Source: Candidatus Sumerlaeota bacterium (lineage in GTDB: Bacteria > CG03 > SLGR01). Taken from it: DNA of 19,735 bases. Location: assembly GCA_007136585.1 (NCBI GenBank), contig SLGR01000014.1, positions 1-19,735 of the forward strand, read 5' to 3'. Made by a program: the position numbers and the translations under genes. The notes under the pieces were generated by a model. It had not been told where the DNA came from, ran no database searches, and saw only the letters and a list, made by a program, of their open reading frames with translations. Shown piece after piece: positions 1 through 15,361 of the stretch; within the stretch, counting starts at the first letter, position 1, and every line of letters starts with the position of its first letter.

Positions 1-26
1 ATCACAGCGAATATAACTAGTATCAT
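1..26 (-). CDS. Start of a further operon gene, probably a membrane subunit (cut by the window edge)
   Basis: An ATG lies 22 bp beyond the large-subunit stop and is preceded by GAGGAAG (37-43) at a 10-nt spacing, a good ribosome binding site. The eight visible codons read MILVIFAV, which is hydrophobic and would suit the first membrane helix of an antiporter-like (NuoL/M/N or MrpD type) or other membrane subunit. Group 4 hydrogenase-type operons usually carry such a gene, but eight residues cannot establish identity. The assignment as a gene start rests on the binding site and operon position; the family is inference. Confidence 0.4.
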
Positions 27-48
27 AATACTAGGGCTTCCTCTACCA

Positions 49-1077
49 TTAACTTCCCCCTCCGGCGTCTCCGAAGGCAATATCAGTGAACCCCGGGTCC
101 CATATCCTGTGCCTGTAGGGAAGATTCCCGCCGCGGCTGTTAAGGTAATGAAAGACCTCGCCCCGGGGAGACTCATTCCTCCCTATCCCTTCGCCGGGGG
201 GAATCTCATCTGTTTTCGTCTCAAGAGGGGTATCAGTCTTTCTAAGCGCGGCTTCGCACTGCATTATTATAAGCGCTGACTGGCGGATCTCGCGCAGCCG
301 AATTACGGCCCTGGCATAAAGATCCCCTCTGCCGAGAACCGGAACACTGAACTCAACCATCGGGTAGGCCGCGTACGGTTCGTCGCGGCGGAGATCAATA
401 TCTATATCCGAGGCCCTGGCAGCGGGTCCCGTGACACAGTTCTTCCGGGCATCTTCCCTGGGAAGGACCCCTTTCCCTTTCAGGAGGGAGCCCAGAACCG
501 GGTCATCCTCCACGGCTTTCTCAATCATATCCGTTTTAGGTAGAAGCTTATTCAGTGCGGCTTTTATCATCTTACCCTGCTCCACGGAGATATCCCGTCG
601 GACCCCGCCTATCTTCATCACGGCGTAATTACGCCTGTTGCCGAATATCTTTCCGCATACTTCCAGGAGGGGTGCCCTGTACCGGGCGCACCACATCCAG
701 AGCGTATCATAACCCGTCAGGCGTCCGGCAAGGCCCAGCCATAGAAGATGGGCCTGGATCCGCTCCATCTCCGCTGCAAGGGTCCTTATATACTTTGCCC
801 TTTCGGGTATCTCTATTCCGGCCAGGTCCTCTACGGCGCTTACGAAAGCAAGCGGATGGGAGACGGAGCATAAACCGCATATCCTTTCCGTAAGGAAAAC
901 TACCTGGCTGAAATGCCTGGATTCAGAGAGTTTCTCTATGCCCCGGTGCCTGTACCCCATATCAATATCCGGGGCCCCGGACGCCGGACGGCGATTGAAA
1001 AACCCGGGTTCCCCGAAGAGTCCGCCGGCGGGACCCGTATGAACCCGCCGGGGGTTTCTACCCGTATCCGCGCTCAT
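49..1077 (-). CDS. [NiFe]-hydrogenase group 4 / NuoD-like large subunit lacking the C-terminal metal-binding motif
   Basis: Homologue of the catalytic large subunit of energy-converting hydrogenases and of NuoD of complex I, expected on the cytoplasmic face of a membrane complex. Visible landmarks are GYRHRGIEKLSESR (41-54), the first metal-ligand motif ERICGLC with C67 and C70 followed by H74, and the conserved helix AAEMERIQAHLLWLG (101-115). The C-terminal part PRGEVFHYLNSRG...LPYRHRI (304-325) is also present. The protein stops at residue 342, about 40-50 residues early, so the family's last helix and DPCxxC ligand pair are absent. ATG is preceded by GAGGAAG and overlaps the upstream gene by 4 bp, so the start is well supported. 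Without the second cysteine pair a normal Ni-Fe site cannot form. I read it as an Ehr-type paralogue rather than a hydrogenase. A disrupted gene is the alternative, although a new gene with its own binding site begins just downstream. Confidence 0.85.
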   Translation of the reverse strand: MSADTGRNPRRVHTGPAGGLFGEPGFFNRRPASGAPDIDMGYRHRGIEKLSESRHFSQVVFLTERICGLCSVSHPLAFVSAVEDLAGIEIPERAKYIRTLAAEMERIQAHLLWLGLAGRLTGYDTLWMWCARYRAPLLEVCGKIFGNRRNYAVMKIGGVRRDISVEQGKMIKAALNKLLPKTDMIEKAVEDDPVLGSLLKGKGVLPREDARKNCVTGPAARASDIDIDLRRDEPYAAYPMVEFSVPVLGRGDLYARAVIRLREIRQSALIIMQCEAALRKTDTPLETKTDEIPPGEGIGRNESPRGEVFHYLNSRGGNLPYRHRIWDPGFTDIAFGDAGGGS

Positions 1078-1496
1078 TTCTTCCTCAGAGGGAACTTCCT
1101 CCCCCTGTACCCTCGGCCAAGAATAAGGTTTCCGGGAGTATCGTTTCCCCTGAAGGATACCCCCATAAGCTCATATATCTCCTGTTCAGCCGGTTCAGCT
1201 CGCGGGATCACTTCTTTCAGGGACTCCACCTCGGGGTTTACGGGATCCAGGGAAACCCTCAGGGTCAGCACCCCCCCGGAAGTATCGTCACTGAAATGAT
1301 ACAGGACCTCAACCGAATCTTTCAGGTCCACACCGCTTGCGGTTATGAACCTGAACCCGGCTTCCCCGAAAAGATGACCCGCGACATCCCCAACACGGGC
1401 AGGGTCTATCCCCAGGTATATTCTACGGGAAGAATGAGCCTGAACGGAGTTTATTACCGAGGAGAACCTTTCCTTGAGTTCCTTCAGAATATCCAT
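1074..1496 (-). CDS. NuoC-like (30 kDa) subunit of the hydrogenase-related complex
   Basis: A 140-residue protein of the respiratory-chain 30 kDa subunit family (NuoC, EchD, N-terminal part of HycE). It normally binds the large subunit and has no cofactor. The diagnostic stretch is AEQEIYELMGVSFRGND (about 102-118), equivalent to the family's E-x-E-V-Y-D-L-F/M-G-I-x-F-x-G-H/N, followed by LILGRGYRGRKFPLRK at the C-terminus. The start ATG has AAGGAG and AAGGGG just upstream and lies 13 bp inside the small-subunit gene. Its stop overlaps the large-subunit start by 4 bp. Both overlaps suggest translational coupling and a fixed stoichiometry. The family assignment is secure; its binding partner here is inferred from gene order. 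Confidence 0.88.
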   Translation of the reverse strand: MDILKELKERFSSVINSVQAHSSRRIYLGIDPARVGDVAGHLFGEAGFRFITASGVDLKDSVEVLYHFSDDTSGGVLTLRVSLDPVNPEVESLKEVIPRAEPAEQEIYELMGVSFRGNDTPGNLILGRGYRGRKFPLRKK

Positions 1497-1930
1497 CGCC
1501 CCTTTCTCCTTTTCCCGGGACCCGGTTTATCCTTTCCGTAAAGCCCGAGGAGTCCGGAGAGGAGGGCCTCCGGGGTAGGCGGGCACCCCGGGATGTATAG
1601 ATCAACCGGGATGTATTTATCCAAGGGTTTTAAAACATTATATGAGCCCCTGAATATCCCGGTATCAAGGGCGCAGGTTCCCACGGCCGCCACCTTAACA
1701 GGGCGGGGAGCCTCCCCGCGCACCTTTTTAAGAAGGGAAAGAGATTTTGGGTTAAGAACACCCGTAACCAATAAACAGTCGGCGTGACGTATGCTCAGCG
1801 CCTCTTTTATCCCGAACCTTTCCGAATCAAACCCGGGGGTAAATATCTCAAGTATCTCCATATCGCAGTTACTGCAGGAAGAGGCAGCAAAATGATAAAC
1901 CCAGAGTGAGCCCGCAGCCGGTTTTATCAT
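1484..1930 (-). CDS. NuoB / group 4 [NiFe]-hydrogenase-like small subunit, one [4Fe-4S] cluster
   Basis: A 148-residue small subunit carrying the proximal (N2-type) [4Fe-4S] cluster. All four expected ligands are visible: C19 and C22 in SSCSNCDMEIL, C86 in VGTC, and C116 in YIPGCPPTPEALL. GIFRGSYN after the third ligand is also typical of the family. It should pass electrons between the ferredoxin subunits and the large-subunit interface. Because this cluster is intact, the electron path up to the altered large subunit looks functional. ATG overlaps the NuoH-like stop by 4 bp (ATGA), and the C-terminus is basic. Length matches EchC/HycG-type small subunits without long extensions. Confidence 0.92.
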   Translation of the reverse strand: MIKPAAGSLWVYHFAASSCSNCDMEILEIFTPGFDSERFGIKEALSIRHADCLLVTGVLNPKSLSLLKKVRGEAPRPVKVAAVGTCALDTGIFRGSYNVLKPLDKYIPVDLYIPGCPPTPEALLSGLLGLYGKDKPGPGKRRKGRWIF

Positions 1931-2829
1931 AACCCCAGACCCCCGAGAAGAACGGAGAAAGCCGCCGCGGCGGTTACCGGATAACGGAAAAATTTCTCTA
2001 TCTGGTCTATCCTAAGTCGGGGGAAAATGTTTTTTACAAGCGCTGAAAAAAGAAGCAGCCCCGCATACCGTAACAGGGTCCCGGAGAGACCGGAGCCGCC
2101 CAGGAAAAGAAGCACGGCAAGGAGCGGGATAAAAGCGTCCAGTATCCATCCGGAAAGCATAAATAGAGCCAGCGGAGGGCCCGAGTACTCCGCGAAAACC
2201 CCGCCCATTATATCCCGCCCGGAGGAGGGCATATCAAAAAGCGAGCGCGAGGACCTGGCCATCAGGCAGAGAAAAGCCGCCGCAAAAGCTATAAACCCCG
2301 AGAGAGAGGCTGCAAATGCGCCCTCATATGACTGGATGGAGTGTATTCCCGCCAGGCTCAGTTCTCCTGAGCTTTTCAGTATCACGGTTACAACGGAAAG
2401 TATAAGCGGAACCTCGCAGGCTGCGAAAACCCTCACCTCTCCCGAAGCCCCTTCCGAAGAGAAAGGTCCCGGGGATGAGGCTCCTGCCAGAAATATGGAA
2501 AAGACCGGAACCCTTAATAGGTAGAGCACGGCAAATATATCTCCCGCGAACCCGCGACCGGCTCCCGCTTCCGTAAGTATCATTGCCGTAAGTATAAGGG
2601 CCGAAAACCCAAGAACCGGAGCGCCCAGGAAAACCGGGGCCGGTGCCCCGGCGGGGATAAGAGTTTCCTTCCGGGAAAGTTTAAGTATATCGTAAAGTGG
2701 CTGCAGGAGAGGCGGACCGCTCCTAAACTGGATAAGGGCGCTTATCTTCCTCTCTATCCAGCAGACCGCCGCCCCCGCCGCCGCGGCAAATATTATTCCC
2801 GGAAAAAGAATATAATTAAAAACGCTCAT
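1927..2829 (-). CDS. NuoH-like membrane subunit (EchB/HycD type)
   Basis: A 300-residue integral membrane protein with about eight hydrophobic helices. It belongs to the NuoH/HycD/EchB family that anchors the soluble arm and forms the start of the ion path. Recognisable family stretches are WIERKISALIQFRSGPPLLQP (about 25-45) with YDILKLSRKE following, and SSPGPFSSEGASGEV (about 117-131), equivalent to the family SPYxxxGASREL loop. ACEVPLILSVV and LRIDQIEKFFRYP near the C-terminus are also characteristic. Having this subunit beside NuoB-, NuoC- and NuoD-like genes is the main reason to call the whole cluster an ion-translocating, energy-converting complex. Start and stop both overlap neighbours by 4 bp. 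Confidence 0.93.
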   Translation of the reverse strand: MSVFNYILFPGIIFAAAAGAAVCWIERKISALIQFRSGPPLLQPLYDILKLSRKETLIPAGAPAPVFLGAPVLGFSALILTAMILTEAGAGRGFAGDIFAVLYLLRVPVFSIFLAGASSPGPFSSEGASGEVRVFAACEVPLILSVVTVILKSSGELSLAGIHSIQSYEGAFAASLSGFIAFAAAFLCLMARSSRSLFDMPSSGRDIMGGVFAEYSGPPLALFMLSGWILDAFIPLLAVLLFLGGSGLSGTLLRYAGLLLFSALVKNIFPRLRIDQIEKFFRYPVTAAAAFSVLLGGLGL

Positions 2830-3236
2830 CTCCAGCCGTAAGACCTTGCCCCCACCCCGTCATCTATAAGAACCCAGCCCTCCGGAAGCTCATCGGAAAA
2901 CTCTATCGCTCCCCTGCGGCATAACTTTCTGCATTTTTCAAAATCAATCTTATAAGCCGGGTACTGAACATATTCAAGAAGGTACGCCGGGTTGGCCCCC
3001 ACCGGGCAGACCGCGGAGCATTGCCGGCAGGAGACGCACCTCATGGAAAGCCTTTTTACCCCCCCCCCTTCCGTTTTTACCAGTGCCCCTGCAGGGCAGG
3101 CGGCCGCGCAGGGCGGGTTCAGGCAGCGGCGGCATACCGCGGCCCTTACCCCGCGTTCAATAAGAGCAAAAAGGCCGGGGTGCGCCCGGCGGCACTTCAC
3201 ACACCCGAAACATTTATCAAGATCTATAAGTATCAT
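2826..3236 (-). CDS. HycB/CooF-like polyferredoxin with altered cluster ligands
   Basis: Electron-transfer protein with ferredoxin-type motifs. Counting from the chosen ATG (136 residues), C9-x2-C12-x2-C15 is followed by H19 where a fourth Cys is usual. C35, C38, C43 and C47P form a standard set, and C67, C70, C73 and C77P another. The last set is reduced to C102 and C106 in KCRKLCRRGA. It most likely links the HydB/HydG-like subunits to the small subunit. The ATG at 3236 gives the ATGA 4-bp overlap seen throughout this operon. An ATG at 3242 is a close alternative. A longer frame upstream to 3329 would overlap the preceding gene by almost 100 bp and lacks family similarity. Altered ligands may mean fewer than four clusters. 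Confidence 0.85.
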   Translation of the reverse strand: MILIDLDKCFGCVKCRRAHPGLFALIERGVRAAVCRRCLNPPCAAACPAGALVKTEGGGVKRLSMRCVSCRQCSAVCPVGANPAYLLEYVQYPAYKIDFEKCRKLCRRGAIEFSDELPEGWVLIDDGVGARSYGWR

Positions 3237-4048
3237 ACCCATAACCCCGGAAGATCCTTCACCCTGCTGTATGGGAAGACAGGCCCGTCCCGGCAGACGT
3301 AGTAAGTACCCGCCAGGCAGCAGCGGCATTTCCCGAACCCGCAGGATATTCTCTTTTCAACCGGCACCCATACCCTGCTCTCATCAACCCCCATCTCCTT
3401 AAGAGCCCCGGCACCGCTCCTTATTATTTCGGGAGACCCCGCGACCACGGCGGAGCAGTTTTCGGGTTCGGGGCTTAGCCGGGAAAAAAGACCCGGGAGC
3501 GGCCCCGCTTCTCCGTTCCAGGACTCACCGGGGGTCTCAGCTGTTTTCAGGACCCTGAACTTCTCCCCCCATTTCTCAAGATCGGTCCTGTATAGCAAAT
3601 CCCCGGGTGACCTGCACCCGTAAAGAAGGGTTACGCTCGGGTACGAATCCCTGGAGGAGAGAATATCCAGGATAAGAGGCCTTACGGAAGCAAGATGCCG
3701 CCCCCGGGCTATTATTATAAACTCCCGGTTTCTGAGCTTTTCCAGAGGGAACCCTTTCCCGCACGGTCCGCGAACCCCGAGGGTATCCCCCTTCTTTTTC
3801 CTGTGAAGGGCCCCCGTGATATCCCCGGTCCTCTTAACCGTAACCTCCACTCCGGGCTCCCCCCCTGGCCGGGGTGAGGGGGTAAAGGGAGCCTCACCTG
3901 TTCCCGGCGCCGCAAGAAGGATGAACTGCCCCGGGTAAAACTCCACCGGCTCATCCGTCTCCAGTGAAAAAGTCTTTATCTCGGGAGTCTCCTCTATTAT
4001 ACCCCTTATAACGCCCCTTACCGGTTCGTAAAGGTTATTCCCGGTCAT
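3233..4048 (-). CDS. HydG/AsrB-type iron-sulfur flavoprotein-like subunit with degenerate nucleotide-binding motif
   Basis: Member of the ferredoxin-NADP reductase superfamily branch that includes sulfhydrogenase gamma (HydG), AsrB and PyrK. The order is a beta-barrel flavin domain (about 8-105; FYPGQFILL at 37-45, KKGDTLGVRGPCGKGFP), a Rossmann-type domain (108-230; LLYGCRSPGDLLY), and a C-terminal [2Fe-2S]-type motif C236, C241, C244, C252 followed by DGPVFPYS. In well-known relatives this subunit moves electrons between NAD(P)H and the complex. Here the glycine-rich stretch normally like AGGxGLAPxRP reads ARGRHLASVRP (114-124), and the later CGPP-type motif is AGSP (203-206). NAD(P)H binding is therefore doubtful. 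The start overlaps the upstream gene by 14 bp with only a weak binding site. Confidence 0.86.
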   Translation of the reverse strand: MTGNNLYEPVRGVIRGIIEETPEIKTFSLETDEPVEFYPGQFILLAAPGTGEAPFTPSPRPGGEPGVEVTVKRTGDITGALHRKKKGDTLGVRGPCGKGFPLEKLRNREFIIIARGRHLASVRPLILDILSSRDSYPSVTLLYGCRSPGDLLYRTDLEKWGEKFRVLKTAETPGESWNGEAGPLPGLFSRLSPEPENCSAVVAGSPEIIRSGAGALKEMGVDESRVWVPVEKRISCGFGKCRCCLAGTYYVCRDGPVFPYSRVKDLPGLWV

Positions 4049-5030
4049 AAATTTCTTTCAGAGTATCTCTCATATCTATCCTGCCGGGGCAAACCTGCAC
4101 GCACCTGCCGCATCCGGTGCATCCCGGTATACCGAACTCCTCACGCATAAGATAGAACTTGCAAAGGTACCTGTGGCGGAAACTTTTCCAGAGTTCTTTC
4201 CCGGGGTTCCCTCTTCCGGGCGAAGAAGCGTAGCCTTTGAACTGGCAGGAATCCCACTGAAGCGCCCTGGTAAACTTTTTCCCGGAAGTAGATTCGTTCA
4301 AAAGGGCGCAGTAACAGGTGGGGCAGCAGAAACAGCATCCTCCGCACCTTATACAATCCCCGGATACTGCGCCCCATAATTCGGCGGCATCATTTTCCAG
4401 GACCTTTTTTCCTGCAGAGGTTTCACAGTCAGAGACCCCGAAGTTTCCCCTTACTTTCCTGGAGGCGGTATCCCTTATATTATCGCGCTGGAGAATATCT
4501 CCCGGTCCGGGTCCGGACCGCTCAGAGTCTCCCAGGAGCTCCACCGCTCTCTCCCCGGAAAACTCTATCAGGAACTCCCCGTTTTTCAGGATGGAAAGGT
4601 TGATCCCGGACCCCTGCTTAACGTAGGGAGAACCCCCTGTCTGGATGCAGAAACACGTATCTGCGGGGGAAGCGCAGTCGGCGGTTACAATTGTAAGGTT
4701 ATCCCGGAGACTCCCGTATACAGCATCAGCCGGCTCATTCTCAAGGAATACCCTGTCAAGAACACCGGCAAGAGCCCGCAGGTCGCAGGAACGGGCCCCC
4801 ACGATTATAACGGGTTTTTCAAGCAGGCTGCTTCCCCCTGCGGCAAACCCCCTCGCTGGCAAGAGAAACTCTTTTACCCCCCGCCAGAGGGGGAGAGACG
4901 CAAGGTCAAACTCCCCGAACTCTTCAAAAAGAGAGATCCGGCCCCGGGTGTCGGGGAGAAAGACCAGGTTTTCCAGGGACCACCTGCTCAGTAGCTCTTT
5001 AAACTCTTTTTCTGTTTTTTTTATTATCAC
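4035..5030 (-). CDS. HydB/AsrA-type iron-sulfur subunit with two [4Fe-4S] motifs
   Basis: Similar to sulfhydrogenase beta (HydB) and anaerobic sulfite reductase A: a long N-terminal domain followed by two ferredoxin motifs. Counted from the GTG start (331 residues), VIIVGARSCDLRAL (about 74-87) and CFCIQTGG (126-133) match the family's GxxxCDxxxL and CFC stretches. The first cluster motif is C226, C229, C232, C236PTC. Next comes the family signature WDSCQFKGYAS, then RYLCKFY, and the second cluster motif C304, C307, C310, C314P. An ATG-initiated frame reaches 5120 but its first 30 residues lie inside rex and do not resemble the family. GTG at 5030, 32 bp inside rex, fits better, although its ribosome binding site is weak. 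It is expected to pair with the following HydG/AsrB-like subunit. Confidence 0.85.
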   Translation of the reverse strand: MIIKKTEKEFKELLSRWSLENLVFLPDTRGRISLFEEFGEFDLASLPLWRGVKEFLLPARGFAAGGSSLLEKPVIIVGARSCDLRALAGVLDRVFLENEPADAVYGSLRDNLTIVTADCASPADTCFCIQTGGSPYVKQGSGINLSILKNGEFLIEFSGERAVELLGDSERSGPGPGDILQRDNIRDTASRKVRGNFGVSDCETSAGKKVLENDAAELWGAVSGDCIRCGGCCFCCPTCYCALLNESTSGKKFTRALQWDSCQFKGYASSPGRGNPGKELWKSFRHRYLCKFYLMREEFGIPGCTGCGRCVQVCPGRIDMRDTLKEIYDRE

Positions 5031-5664
5031 CGGTTCCGGGGTTCCCGCCGTCCCGGGAGCTGAGGAAAAAAGCCAGGTTCTCAAGTTCAAAGGCAAGGTC
5101 CGCGCTGCGGACGTGGACATCTTCGGGAACTCTCAGGTTAACGGGGGCAAAGTTCAGCATCTCCCTTATCCCGGCGGAAACAAGTTTATCCGCCACACCC
5201 TGGACCGCGGAAGCGGGGACTGCTATGACCGCAATATGTATATCACCCTCGCTGAGCCGGCTCCGGATATTACTGCTATCTTCTATAATTACATCTTCCC
5301 ATTTTTTTCCGATCCTTTCCGGATCTGCATCAAAAACGGCCCGGAAGAGAAAACCTTCTTTTCTGAAACCGGAGTAATAAAAGAGCGCCCGCCCCAGGTT
5401 TCCCGCGCCTATCAGGGCCACCCCCCAGCTCCTGTCAATCCCTATGAGCCTCTCCAGGTCTTCCCGGAGAGCCGGGATATTGTACCCTACCCCGGGTTTA
5501 CCCATCCTTCCTATAAGAGAGAGGTCTTTTCGTACCTGGGCGGGAGACTTGGAAAGTATGAGGGCCAGTTTCCTTGATGTAACCCATCTTTCGCCGTTCT
5601 TCTCCAGCCTCTTGAGAAGACGGCGGTATATAACCAGTCTTTCTACAGTGTGTGTGCTTATCAC
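4999..5664 (-). CDS. rex: Redox-sensing transcriptional repressor Rex
   Basis: A 221-residue Rex protein. The N-terminal winged-helix DNA-binding domain (about 5-75) includes the signature SPAQVRKDLSLIG and GKPGVGYN (up to 62). The Rossmann domain begins with VALIGAGNLGRALF (82-95), the dinucleotide-binding glycine loop, and continues with FRAVFDADPERIG. The family represses fermentation and respiration genes when NADH/NAD+ is low and leaves DNA when NADH rises. Translation starts at GTG (5664) 8 nt after GGCGGAT, 19 bp beyond the DUF4914 stop. Its end overlaps the next gene. Sitting second in the redox operon, it probably controls the operon and itself. I could not find a classical TTGTGA-N6-TCACAA operator in the promoter region. 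Confidence 0.95.
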   Translation of the reverse strand: MISTHTVERLVIYRRLLKRLEKNGERWVTSRKLALILSKSPAQVRKDLSLIGRMGKPGVGYNIPALREDLERLIGIDRSWGVALIGAGNLGRALFYYSGFRKEGFLFRAVFDADPERIGKKWEDVIIEDSSNIRSRLSEGDIHIAVIAVPASAVQGVADKLVSAGIREMLNFAPVNLRVPEDVHVRSADLAFELENLAFFLSSRDGGNPGTGDNKKNRKRV

Positions 5665-12859: not shown

Positions 12860-13828
12860 TTAGAAAAGGCTGAACCTGACCCCGGCGTCTATCATATGGT
12901 TAACGGTCTCAAGGTTTCCCCCGGATGTAAAACTGTAATTTACGATAACCTGGCCGCCCCAGTCCGAAAACTCGGGGGGAGCGGATTCAAACCCTCCTCC
13001 CATTGTATAGAAGAGCCCGCCCTCTGTATCTTTTATGCCTGCGCGGAACCGGAACCCTTCGGCTGCTTCTATCTCTGTTCCCAGATGAATACCGGTCTTA
13101 TCCTTGCCTAACTCAAAATCAACCCCGGCAAGGAGTATCTCCAGCGGCCGGTAACTTGCCCCGACCCTGAAAATGGTAGGCATCGATATAATTTTCCCGT
13201 TAAAAAAGAAGAAACCAAAATTACTCACAGCGGCGCCGGCCCGGATATCCCCGGGAAGGTCCGTAAGAACTCCCATATCAATAGAAGCGCCGTGCCCCTT
13301 GTACCCGGCTATATTCTCATTAAGATACTTCACGTTTGCGCCTGCGTACAGGTCACCTTCAAGGTTAAGACCGAAGTTAAGCCCTAACGAAAGGTCGTAA
13401 TACCTCAGTCCGCCGGTTCGGCGACCAGTTTCATCATAGGCATCAAGCCCCGCGACAGTGAAATAATCTATACTCAAAGCATGCAGGGGAACCGCGGAAA
13501 GAAGTCCGGAGGGAAGAACAATAAGGAAAGAGCCTTTTCCGGCGCTCTTTATCCAGTCAGCGTACCCCGCGGCGACAAAGAAATCATCCCGGTTCTGCCT
13601 TACCAGCCCCGCGGGGTTGTAAAATACGGAAGCCCCCGGGTCCTGTGATACGGAAGTATAAGCCCCGCCCATCCCCTCGGAGGCGGCAAAGACCGGAATT
13701 CTAAGGTACTGAAGGGCGGCCCCCCGTAACGGAGCGGGAAAAATAAAAACCGCAAGCAGAAATAAGACCATAGATCTCACGGGCGCTGAACCGCGAGGAC
13801 GGACCGGGTCTTTTATACCATCTGGCAT
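12860..13828 (-). CDS. PorV/PorQ (UPF0164)-family outer-membrane beta-barrel protein
   Basis: A 322-residue predicted outer-membrane protein. After an N-terminal hydrophobic stretch (MVLFLLAVFIFPAPLRG, about 20-36) comes the family signature FAASEGMGGAYTSVSQDPGA...FYNPAGLV (about 47-77). The rest alternates in the manner of beta strands, with aromatic-rich segments, and it ends in VRFSLF, a terminal Phe typical of barrel proteins inserted by BAM. In type IX secretion, PorV shuttles cargo bearing a C-terminal sorting domain; elsewhere the role of this family is unknown. AAGGGG stands 9 nt before the first ATG. An internal ATG at residue 20 would give a more classical signal peptide. It follows the gene for a protein with a sorting-like C-terminus by 12 bp. 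Confidence 0.83.
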   Translation of the reverse strand: MPDGIKDPVRPRGSAPVRSMVLFLLAVFIFPAPLRGAALQYLRIPVFAASEGMGGAYTSVSQDPGASVFYNPAGLVRQNRDDFFVAAGYADWIKSAGKGSFLIVLPSGLLSAVPLHALSIDYFTVAGLDAYDETGRRTGGLRYYDLSLGLNFGLNLEGDLYAGANVKYLNENIAGYKGHGASIDMGVLTDLPGDIRAGAAVSNFGFFFFNGKIISMPTIFRVGASYRPLEILLAGVDFELGKDKTGIHLGTEIEAAEGFRFRAGIKDTEGGLFYTMGGGFESAPPEFSDWGGQVIVNYSFTSGGNLETVNHMIDAGVRFSLF

Positions 13829-13840
13829 AAAAACACCCCT

Positions 13841-15361
13841 TTATCTCACGACCACCAGGGTTTTATTAACCTGGTACTTCTCATCCCCGGAGATCGCCCT
13901 CAGCCTGTAAAAATACAACCCCGGGGGCACCCGGTTTCCACTGTCGTCCCTTAGGTTCCAGGTAATAATATGCTCACCGCGTTCAAGGTCGGTTACCCTT
14001 CTGCTGTATATTTTATTCTGCATAAGATTAAATATCTCAAGGGTCAGATCAGACCTGGAATAAAGCTCAAAAGCTATATTCACATCCCCGGTTTCGGCAG
14101 GCTGGGGGTAGGCCTTGACAGAGCTGCGGAAAATCATCTTCGGGGTTATCTCGTCCCCCGTGGTCTCAACCTCAACCTCAATATCCTGGACAAGGAACTC
14201 TCCGGATATCAACTCCCCGAGCGCGCTCCTGCCGGTCAGCGCCGCGCGGTAAAGACCCGGCTCCACGCCTCCCTGCCTCTGGGTTCTCCCGTCCCACTCC
14301 AGGGAAACATCTCCGGCGGGTTTCGTTCCGGGTTCCATTATCCTTATTATGCGCCCGGGCTCAACCTCTTCGGTCACCGGGTTTACAGGCAGGGGTTCTC
14401 CTTTTACATACTCATAGGTAAACCCGTAATCCATATAATCCATAGAGCCGTCATCCGGAGCGGGAATGAATTCGGTTCCGGGGAGACATATAAGGACCCG
14501 TGAAGCGGAGCGGGTATTGCTCTGGTAGGTAAGTACCGATACCGGGTTATCCTCGCTGATGGGGGCAACCTCAAAGTTCCTGTAATCGGGTTTAGGTATA
14601 ACAACGGTCTTGAACCCGGAATCCCTTTTAACCTCTTCAGTATCAAAAACCTCAAAAAATACGTAATACGTGCCGGGGGGCTGGACGACTCCGGACTCAT
14701 CTCTCCAGTCCCAAGAGACACTCTGGGTTTCTCCGGATGGTGTCAGAGGGACGTCCCACCCGGCCCTTAAGACTTTAACGGGGTCGTAACCTCCCGGGGG
14801 TTCTCCGGGACTTACCCAGTACCCGTCGGAGTCTCTCGCTCCGGGGTCATCCCTGAACTCCATAAAATCCCCCCTTCTGTAAACCTCAATATTAACCGAG
14901 GAGATATCCTGAACGGAAAACGGTATATGCCAGATCTGCCCGTAACCCCAAAGGTGTCCGCCCTCACCGTCATACTCCCTGAACCGCTCCGCATTCCCAC
15001 GCGTCTCGGAGATTCCCAGGTACCTGTTCTGTACTATACCGCTTACTACGGTTCTTGGCTCCTCGTCAGTAGCTGTTACCCGGTACTCGTGCGTTCCCGG
15101 TTCAGAATCTTCATATACCCGGTCTGAACCCGGTATTAAGGTCACGCTATCCGTATCCAGGTTCCCTATACCCGGGGCCCGCTCCAGTATATATGCAACA
15201 GTGCCGGAAGAGTTCGTCATCTCTGACCAACTGAGGGTAAATTTCCCGGCCTCTTCATCCCAGGAACCCTCCAGTCTTATCTCGGCGTAAGATTCGGCCG
15301 GAAAAACCGCAGCTGATATAAGAATCGCAAGTAAGAAAAAAACCCTTATCTTAACGCTCAT
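13841..15361 (-). CDS. Secreted protein with Fn3-like and FlgD/T9SS-type C-terminal domain
   Basis: A 506-residue exported protein. Residues 1-26 form a signal peptide (VFFLLAILISAAVFPAESYA). Residues about 28-115 look like a fibronectin-type-III-like domain (WSEMTNSSGTVAYILER, then EPGTHEYRVTATDEE). The middle contains repeated Ig-like segments of the DxSGxxxPPGxY type (about 215-235 and 365-385). Residues about 405-506 form a FlgD-Ig/type-A-sorting-like domain, with the last module reading DLTLEIFNL, GEHIITWNL and VPPGLYFYRL. Such C-termini direct T9SS export in Bacteroidetes and are common in several uncultured phyla where the secretion route is less clear. The start overlaps the response regulator stop by 4 bp. 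Enzymatic motifs are absent, so a structural or surface role is likely. Confidence 0.8.
   Translation of the reverse strand: MSVKIRVFFLLAILISAAVFPAESYAEIRLEGSWDEEAGKFTLSWSEMTNSSGTVAYILERAPGIGNLDTDSVTLIPGSDRVYEDSEPGTHEYRVTATDEEPRTVVSGIVQNRYLGISETRGNAERFREYDGEGGHLWGYGQIWHIPFSVQDISSVNIEVYRRGDFMEFRDDPGARDSDGYWVSPGEPPGGYDPVKVLRAGWDVPLTPSGETQSVSWDWRDESGVVQPPGTYYVFFEVFDTEEVKRDSGFKTVVIPKPDYRNFEVAPISEDNPVSVLTYQSNTRSASRVLICLPGTEFIPAPDDGSMDYMDYGFTYEYVKGEPLPVNPVTEEVEPGRIIRIMEPGTKPAGDVSLEWDGRTQRQGGVEPGLYRAALTGRSALGELISGEFLVQDIEVEVETTGDEITPKMIFRSSVKAYPQPAETGDVNIAFELYSRSDLTLEIFNLMQNKIYSRRVTDLERGEHIITWNLRDDSGNRVPPGLYFYRLRAISGDEKYQVNKTLVVVR

Follow-up and report, generated by a model that had tools for sequence, protein, structure and literature searches.

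The 19,735-nucleotide window analyzed here comprises the whole of contig SLGR01000014.1 (C208) in the genome of a Candidatus Sumerlaeota bacterium (G000; 1.88 Mb, 88% complete). On its minus strand, between bases 49 and 5664, the open reading frame (ORF) list and family profile matches identify an operon with the order rex-AsrA/HydB-AsrB/HydG-ferredoxin-NuoH-NuoB-NuoC-NuoD. We suggest, with a probability of about 0.55, that the predicted products of this operon form a de-hydrogenased, Ni-free, Ehr-like Fe-S/flavin conduit, descended from an Mrp-linked group 4 [NiFe] hydrogenase. Somewhat more tentatively, the operon may represent a case in which bacteria independently turned an NAD(P)H-linked Mrp [NiFe] hydrogenase into an Fe-S electron conduit free of both Ni and NAD(P)H, kept by selection in two genera, namely that of the source organism and another genus of the same family (G002; genome 84% complete).

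Loss of the nickel site from the large subunit

The large subunit encoded in the window retains the first Ni motif (RxCGxCxxxH) as RICGLCSVSH and stops at GGGS*, before the position of the second motif, which reads DPCYCC in relatives. The incomplete Ni site proposed in the first-pass annotation is borne out, with the first CxxC in place and the second missing. The large subunits of the relatives are approximately 65 residues longer, continuing through DPCYCCTER and being followed by NuoL, and both Ni-binding CxxC motifs (L1 and L2) are intact in 92/92 relatives. Approximately 20 bases downstream of the large subunit stop, the window contains a NuoL start (MILVIFAV), while a further contig of the same genome (C43) opens in frame at approximately NuoL residue 12 and encodes, in order, NuoL (565 aa), a 200 aa 4Fe-4S protein (Fd2), a 287 aa protein without a Pfam match and MazG. 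From the frame and the synteny we infer that C43 is the direct continuation of the window, in which case the gene following the large subunit, a point raised in the first-pass annotation, would be nuoL. Given the NuoL start and its in-frame continuation, the second Ni motif is most likely truly absent. A simple frameshift cannot account for the shortness of the large subunit, since DPCxxC is not encoded in any reading frame up to the contig end and the C-terminus present in relatives would require approximately 198 nt, where approximately 46 nt are available.

Conserved positions of the large subunit have been lost at 44/134 sites in the window and at 40 of the 71 sites covered in G002, compared to at most 5% in the 92 relatives. 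The G002 protein has lost the first CxxC (SERISAHSS), while its second motif would lie past the contig end. In a large subunit phylogeny that includes no Ehr references, and in which several homologues from other genomes were taken in the wrong frame and are uninformative, the window protein nests with 100/100 support among the Ni-containing proteins of its order-mates, apart from MBS and complex I. It shares 55-58% amino acid identity with these order-mates' large subunits, whose Ni sites are intact.

Intact relatives of the operon

A single scan of genome contigs returned 80 loci, derived from Omnitrophota, Bacteroidota, Elusimicrobia, Cloacimonadota and others. The AsrA-AsrB-Fd-NuoH-NuoB-(NuoC)-large subunit order is present in 54/57 loci with enough upstream sequence, and a search for it across genomes, as proposed in the first-pass annotation, thus shows that it is not unique to this contig. 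Among the 48 loci with enough downstream sequence, at least four Mrp subunits are encoded in 43, a 4Fe-4S protein in all 48 and HycI within the span in 28. The order of Pfam matches in G005, for example, is NuoL, MbhD/E, MnhB, NuoK, MnhD, E, F, G, 4Fe-4S, HycI, HypA and HypF. The intact version belongs to the Mrp-linked group 4 [NiFe] hydrogenases and has an input module besides; with both Ni motifs, the NAD(P) motif and, often, a Rex operator, the intact relatives look like working hydrogenases. As such, the suggestion in the first-pass annotation that a HydBG-like module joined to a NuoBCDH core would be a new wiring does not hold, since the same order is common to relatives bearing Hyp and HycI, where it feeds an ordinary enzyme of this kind, and has been noted in the literature. 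A single locus with asrA, asrB, cooF and Mrp-like subunits, for which an Mbh-like role was guessed, has been described in Saganbacteria RX5A (Matheus Carnevali et al. 2019, PMC6349859), and the Mrp-linked enzymes of Cloacimonadota and Omnitrophota have been named group 4g (PMC8542988). The wiring is therefore already reported, with the NAD(P)H side being absent from its discussion in the relevant passages of these two papers. A separate group 3 hydrogenase to which the HydBG-like genes would belong was also rejected, as G000 contains a single large subunit homologue and no other.

Among solved structures, the best matches for AsrA and AsrB, with the G001 homologues as queries, are the beta (9nez_B) and gamma (9nez_C) subunits of Pyrococcus sulfhydrogenase 1, respectively. 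Of 70 AsrB relatives, all have an intact NAD(P) glycine motif and 68 have GPP. Furthermore, Rex operators (at most two mismatches, within 500 bp) occur at 27/66 operon heads, against 36/2693 tiles (1.3%) from the same loci. Taken together, these features suggest that the intact version links H2 to NAD(H) and couples this reaction to ion transport, with the conserved NAD(P) motif and the Rex operators arguing against the usual annotation as an enzyme linked to ferredoxin only.

Two variants were observed among the loci. In four (L089, L095, L108 and L120), no Mrp subunits are recognizable in the interval from the large subunit to the 4Fe-4S protein; three of these derive from Omnitrophota or Auribacterota metagenome-assembled genomes, and HycI is still encoded in two. 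In L049 (8595-10298; G060:C65), where the large subunit gene adjoins AsrA/AsrB, an in-frame TGA is located at the second Cys of the first Ni motif (ERICGI*GTVH) and is followed by a GACAGTAC...GTACTGTC stem, suggesting a possible selenocysteine in L1. Known [NiFeSe] enzymes carry selenocysteine in L2. An Rfam search returned no match.

Further losses in the two genera

In AsrB, the NAD(P) motif GGGxGxAPLRS is replaced by ARGRHLASVRP in the window and AQDEGIIQLHS in G002, and the window protein has AGSP where xGPP is expected; its FAD loops are mostly kept, as are the [2Fe-2S] cysteines. The FDxxEAExE motif of NuoH, in which 12/54 conserved positions are lost, has become FDMPSSGRD in the window, and the PEAE motif is also lost in G002. 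In NuoL, 26/89 conserved positions are lost, including the lysine aligned with transmembrane helix 8 (TM8) of MbhH. All 15 conserved cysteines of AsrA are kept, none of 15 conserved positions is lost in the CooF-like ferredoxin, and NuoB retains four of its four proximal-cluster cysteines.

The maturation genes, for which the first-pass annotation had advised a search, follow the same division. HypD and HypF are present in G001, G003 and G005 and were not found in G000 or G002, an absence that is not proof at the completeness of these two genomes. In G001, the 4Fe-4S protein and MazG are separated by HycI, HypA, HypF, HypD, HypE and several further genes; this block is missing in G000 and G002, where Fd2 and MazG are near neighbors. 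Downstream of Fd2 on C43 no HycI, HypA or HypF was found, while HypB, HypC and HypE were not searched for in G000. The operon is preceded by a Rex operator with 0-1 mismatches in G001, G003, G004 and G005, and none was found in front of the window operon.

The Mrp block is likewise missing from the G000 operon, where NuoL is directly followed by Fd2. A separate Mrp-like cluster on contig C156 (L139), consisting of MbhDE and MnhB-G and followed by two large transporter-like membrane proteins, was rejected as an ortholog of the operon Mrp, since its MnhD shares 33-35% amino acid identity with the operon MnhD proteins of the order, which share approximately 58% among themselves. In G002, the antiporter on contig C42 was considered as NuoL and rejected, being MnhD. 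A gap in the same locus (L157) is a possible graveyard of the Mrp module.

Evolutionary rates and retained residues

Relative to intact relatives, the rate of GltX is 0.99 in G000 and 0.89 in G002 and thus not accelerated, while the operon genes are faster, by 1.6-2.2x for AsrA, Fd and NuoC and up to 2.9-9.5x for the large subunit. Between G000 and G002, divergence in each of the seven genes compared is concentrated at position 3 of the codons, with positions 1 and 2 far less affected, and open frames are present in both for all subunits seen. The subunits other than the large one retain 44/44 conserved cysteines in G000 and 31/31 in G002, almost all of which are Fe-S ligands, while their other conserved positions are changed at 72/299 and 74/195, respectively (24-38%; Fisher test: 3e-5 and 2e-6). 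The two genera are sisters in the AsrA (90/96), Fd (98/97) and AsrB (96/97) trees, and the simplest reading is one ancestral loss followed by long retention. They do not group in the single-gene trees of NuoH, NuoB and the large subunit, which we put down to long branches.

Origin and fate of the complex

The sequences show that the operon descends from an Mrp-linked group 4 [NiFe] hydrogenase of wide distribution, in which the AsrAB/HydBG-like module would exchange electrons with NAD(P)H. The hydrogenase function would have been dropped, probably in the common ancestor of G000 and G002, with deletion of the Hyp/HycI block, loss of Ni ligands (the second pair in G000 and the first in G002) and decay of the NAD(P) site. 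The genes would then have been retained as a Ni-free, Ehr-like, membrane-anchored Fe-S/flavin wire, in which an intact chain links AsrB/AsrA, by way of the ferredoxins, with the NuoB cluster. We infer that the complex continues to work, and likewise its electron partners and the direction of electron flow: its likeliest use would be electron transfer with ferredoxin (or a flavodoxin-like protein) on one side and another partner on the other, the latter possibly located where the NiFe cavity was vacated, in the manner of MBS and complex I. A plausible cause of the loss is that NADH-linked H2 production moved to [FeFe] hydrogenases. On contig C149 of G000 (L203 2182-14905) lies an [FeFe] hydrogenase cluster, in which a HydF maturase is encoded together with two HydA, NuoE/NuoF-like subunits and a 1049 aa protein joining NuoF-like and pyridine-nucleotide reductase domains; a Rex-like site (one mismatch) precedes the cluster. 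This link is suggestive only, because G001 and G004 carry both hydrogenase types.

Several observations weigh against a retained conduit. No partner or acceptor was identified for the window complex, and the coupling residues of NuoH and NuoL are lost. The window and C43 share no overlap, with a few bases probably missing between them, and HypD and HypF are also missing from G004, probably through a cut contig, although its large subunit is intact. In G002, approximately 750 bp without a recognizable gene (G002:C42, L157 2524-3281) stand in place of MnhE-G, with no significant match to remains of MnhE, MnhF or MnhG. The tests on G000 and G002 are not independent, since the two are sisters, and the general 1.6-9.5x acceleration fits slow decay as well. 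Such decay, in which the complex became dispensable once [FeFe] hydrogenases took over NADH-linked H2 production and has been drifting towards pseudogenes whose frames have simply not yet been broken, would account for an operon-wide rate increase beside a normal GltX, for the loss of the Rex operator and of the coupling, Ni and NAD motifs alike, and for the absence of the Mrp block beside NuoL in G000 and its apparent erosion in G002; the NAD-type [FeFe] cluster with its Rex-like site in G000 is also consistent with it. It is the most serious alternative, yet we consider it less likely than a retained conduit, as all subunits seen have open frames in both genera, the first two codon positions are constrained in each gene compared, no conserved cysteine is lost outside the large subunit, and the rate increase is uneven, being low in AsrA, Fd and NuoC. 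It is very improbable that an assembly or binning artefact conceals a true large subunit with a second CxxC. The contig ends 49 bases from the stop, and such ends are error-prone, but NuoL starts approximately 20 bases on and is continued in frame by C43, conserved N-terminal residues of the large subunit are lost too, the independently assembled G002 lacks the first CxxC, and HypD and HypF were not found.

A special case of the retained, Ni-free conduit is an MBS-like version of the ion pump envisaged in the first-pass annotation, which would use ferredoxin and NuoH/NuoL for ion transport, with a new acceptor such as polysulfide or quinone. In its favor, the chain is unbroken at its proximal-cluster end, G000 still encodes NuoL and G002 an MnhD, and pumping may still occur because MBS, which differs at the same NuoH motif, pumps ions. 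For the window copy the proposal is not supported, as the PEAE motif of NuoH, the TM8-aligned lysine among the lost NuoL positions and the adjacent Mrp block are all gone. Pumping by the window complex is thus uncertain, and we regard it as doubtful.

Gene content of the window

The seven overlapping genes recognized in the first-pass annotation as NuoH/B/C/D-like parts, a polyferredoxin and a HydBG/AsrAB-type pair are confirmed by family matches (Table 1), and the name polyferredoxin is fair for a protein with several 4Fe-4S motifs. The span given there (1-5030) needs amendment: the seven ORFs are adjacent or overlapping as stated, but lie at 49-5120, and rex is added at 4999-5664. The rex gene also adjoins AsrA in G001, G003, G004 and G005. 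The true start of AsrA is probably internal to its ORF, with relatives being approximately 330 aa long, and that of the CooF-like ferredoxin is probably near 3236.

Table 1. Genes of the operon in the window, with coordinates and supporting matches.
Feature	Coordinates	Strand	Evidence or remark
rex, NAD(H)-sensing repressor, operon head	4999..5664	-	NCBIfam Rex, 236 bits
AsrA/HydB-like Fe-S subunit	4035..5120	-	Fer4_22, AsrA and HydB matches
AsrB/HydG-like flavoprotein, DHODB-type FAD/NAD reductase	3233..4048	-	AsrB, 154 bits
CooF-like multi-cluster 4Fe-4S protein	2826..3329	-	Fer4 domains
NuoH/MbhM-like membrane subunit	1927..2829	-	NADHdh, 175 bits
NuoB/MbhJ-like subunit	1484..1930	-	Oxidored_q6
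NuoC/MbhK-like subunit	1074..1496	-	Complex1_30kDa
NuoD/MbhL-like large subunit, 342 aa	49..1077	-	Complex1_49kDa, NiFeSe_Hases
NuoL-like antiporter subunit, start only	1..28	-	rest on contig G000:C43 (565 aa)

Elsewhere in the window (12860-15361), a 322 aa protein with a signal-peptide-like N-terminus and a 506 aa protein with a FlgD/gliding-type sorting-like C-terminal region are encoded.

Comparison with known systems

According to the prevailing view, complex I, MBS and Ehr have a common origin with hydrogenases, their nickel site having been lost or never present. If the proposed origin is correct, the window operon would parallel the steps from hydrogenases to MBS and complex I, with intact relatives in the same family. 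As intact and de-hydrogenased versions occur side by side, the order in which maturation genes, Ni ligands, NAD site and Mrp arm were lost can be studied in this family.

The closest known system is the Mrp-linked group 4 [NiFe] hydrogenase of the Saganbacteria RX5A type, with which the window shares the hydrogenase core and the Mrp-like, asrA, asrB and cooF kinds of gene, and from which it differs in lacking the second Ni motif, the NAD(P) motif, HycI, HypA, HypD and HypF, the Rex operator and an adjacent Mrp block. Pyrococcus sulfhydrogenase 1 (9nez chains B and C) and AsrAB have the same two-protein flavin/Fe-S module, whose Fe-S cysteines are kept in the window; in contrast, its NAD(P) pyrophosphate-binding motif is destroyed in both the window and G002. 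MBS/MBX of Thermococcales (6u8y) is, like the window complex, hydrogenase-derived, with a lost Ni site and an Fe-S chain ending at a NuoB-type cluster, but the window protein falls elsewhere in large subunit trees. MBS has an Mrp-type membrane arm and is not known to carry an AsrAB module. Ehr likewise lacks a full set of Ni ligands and keeps NuoBCDH together with a NuoL-like antiporter subunit, and the window differs from it in that the loss falls within a single family of relatives that contain Ni, in a tree without Ehr sequences.

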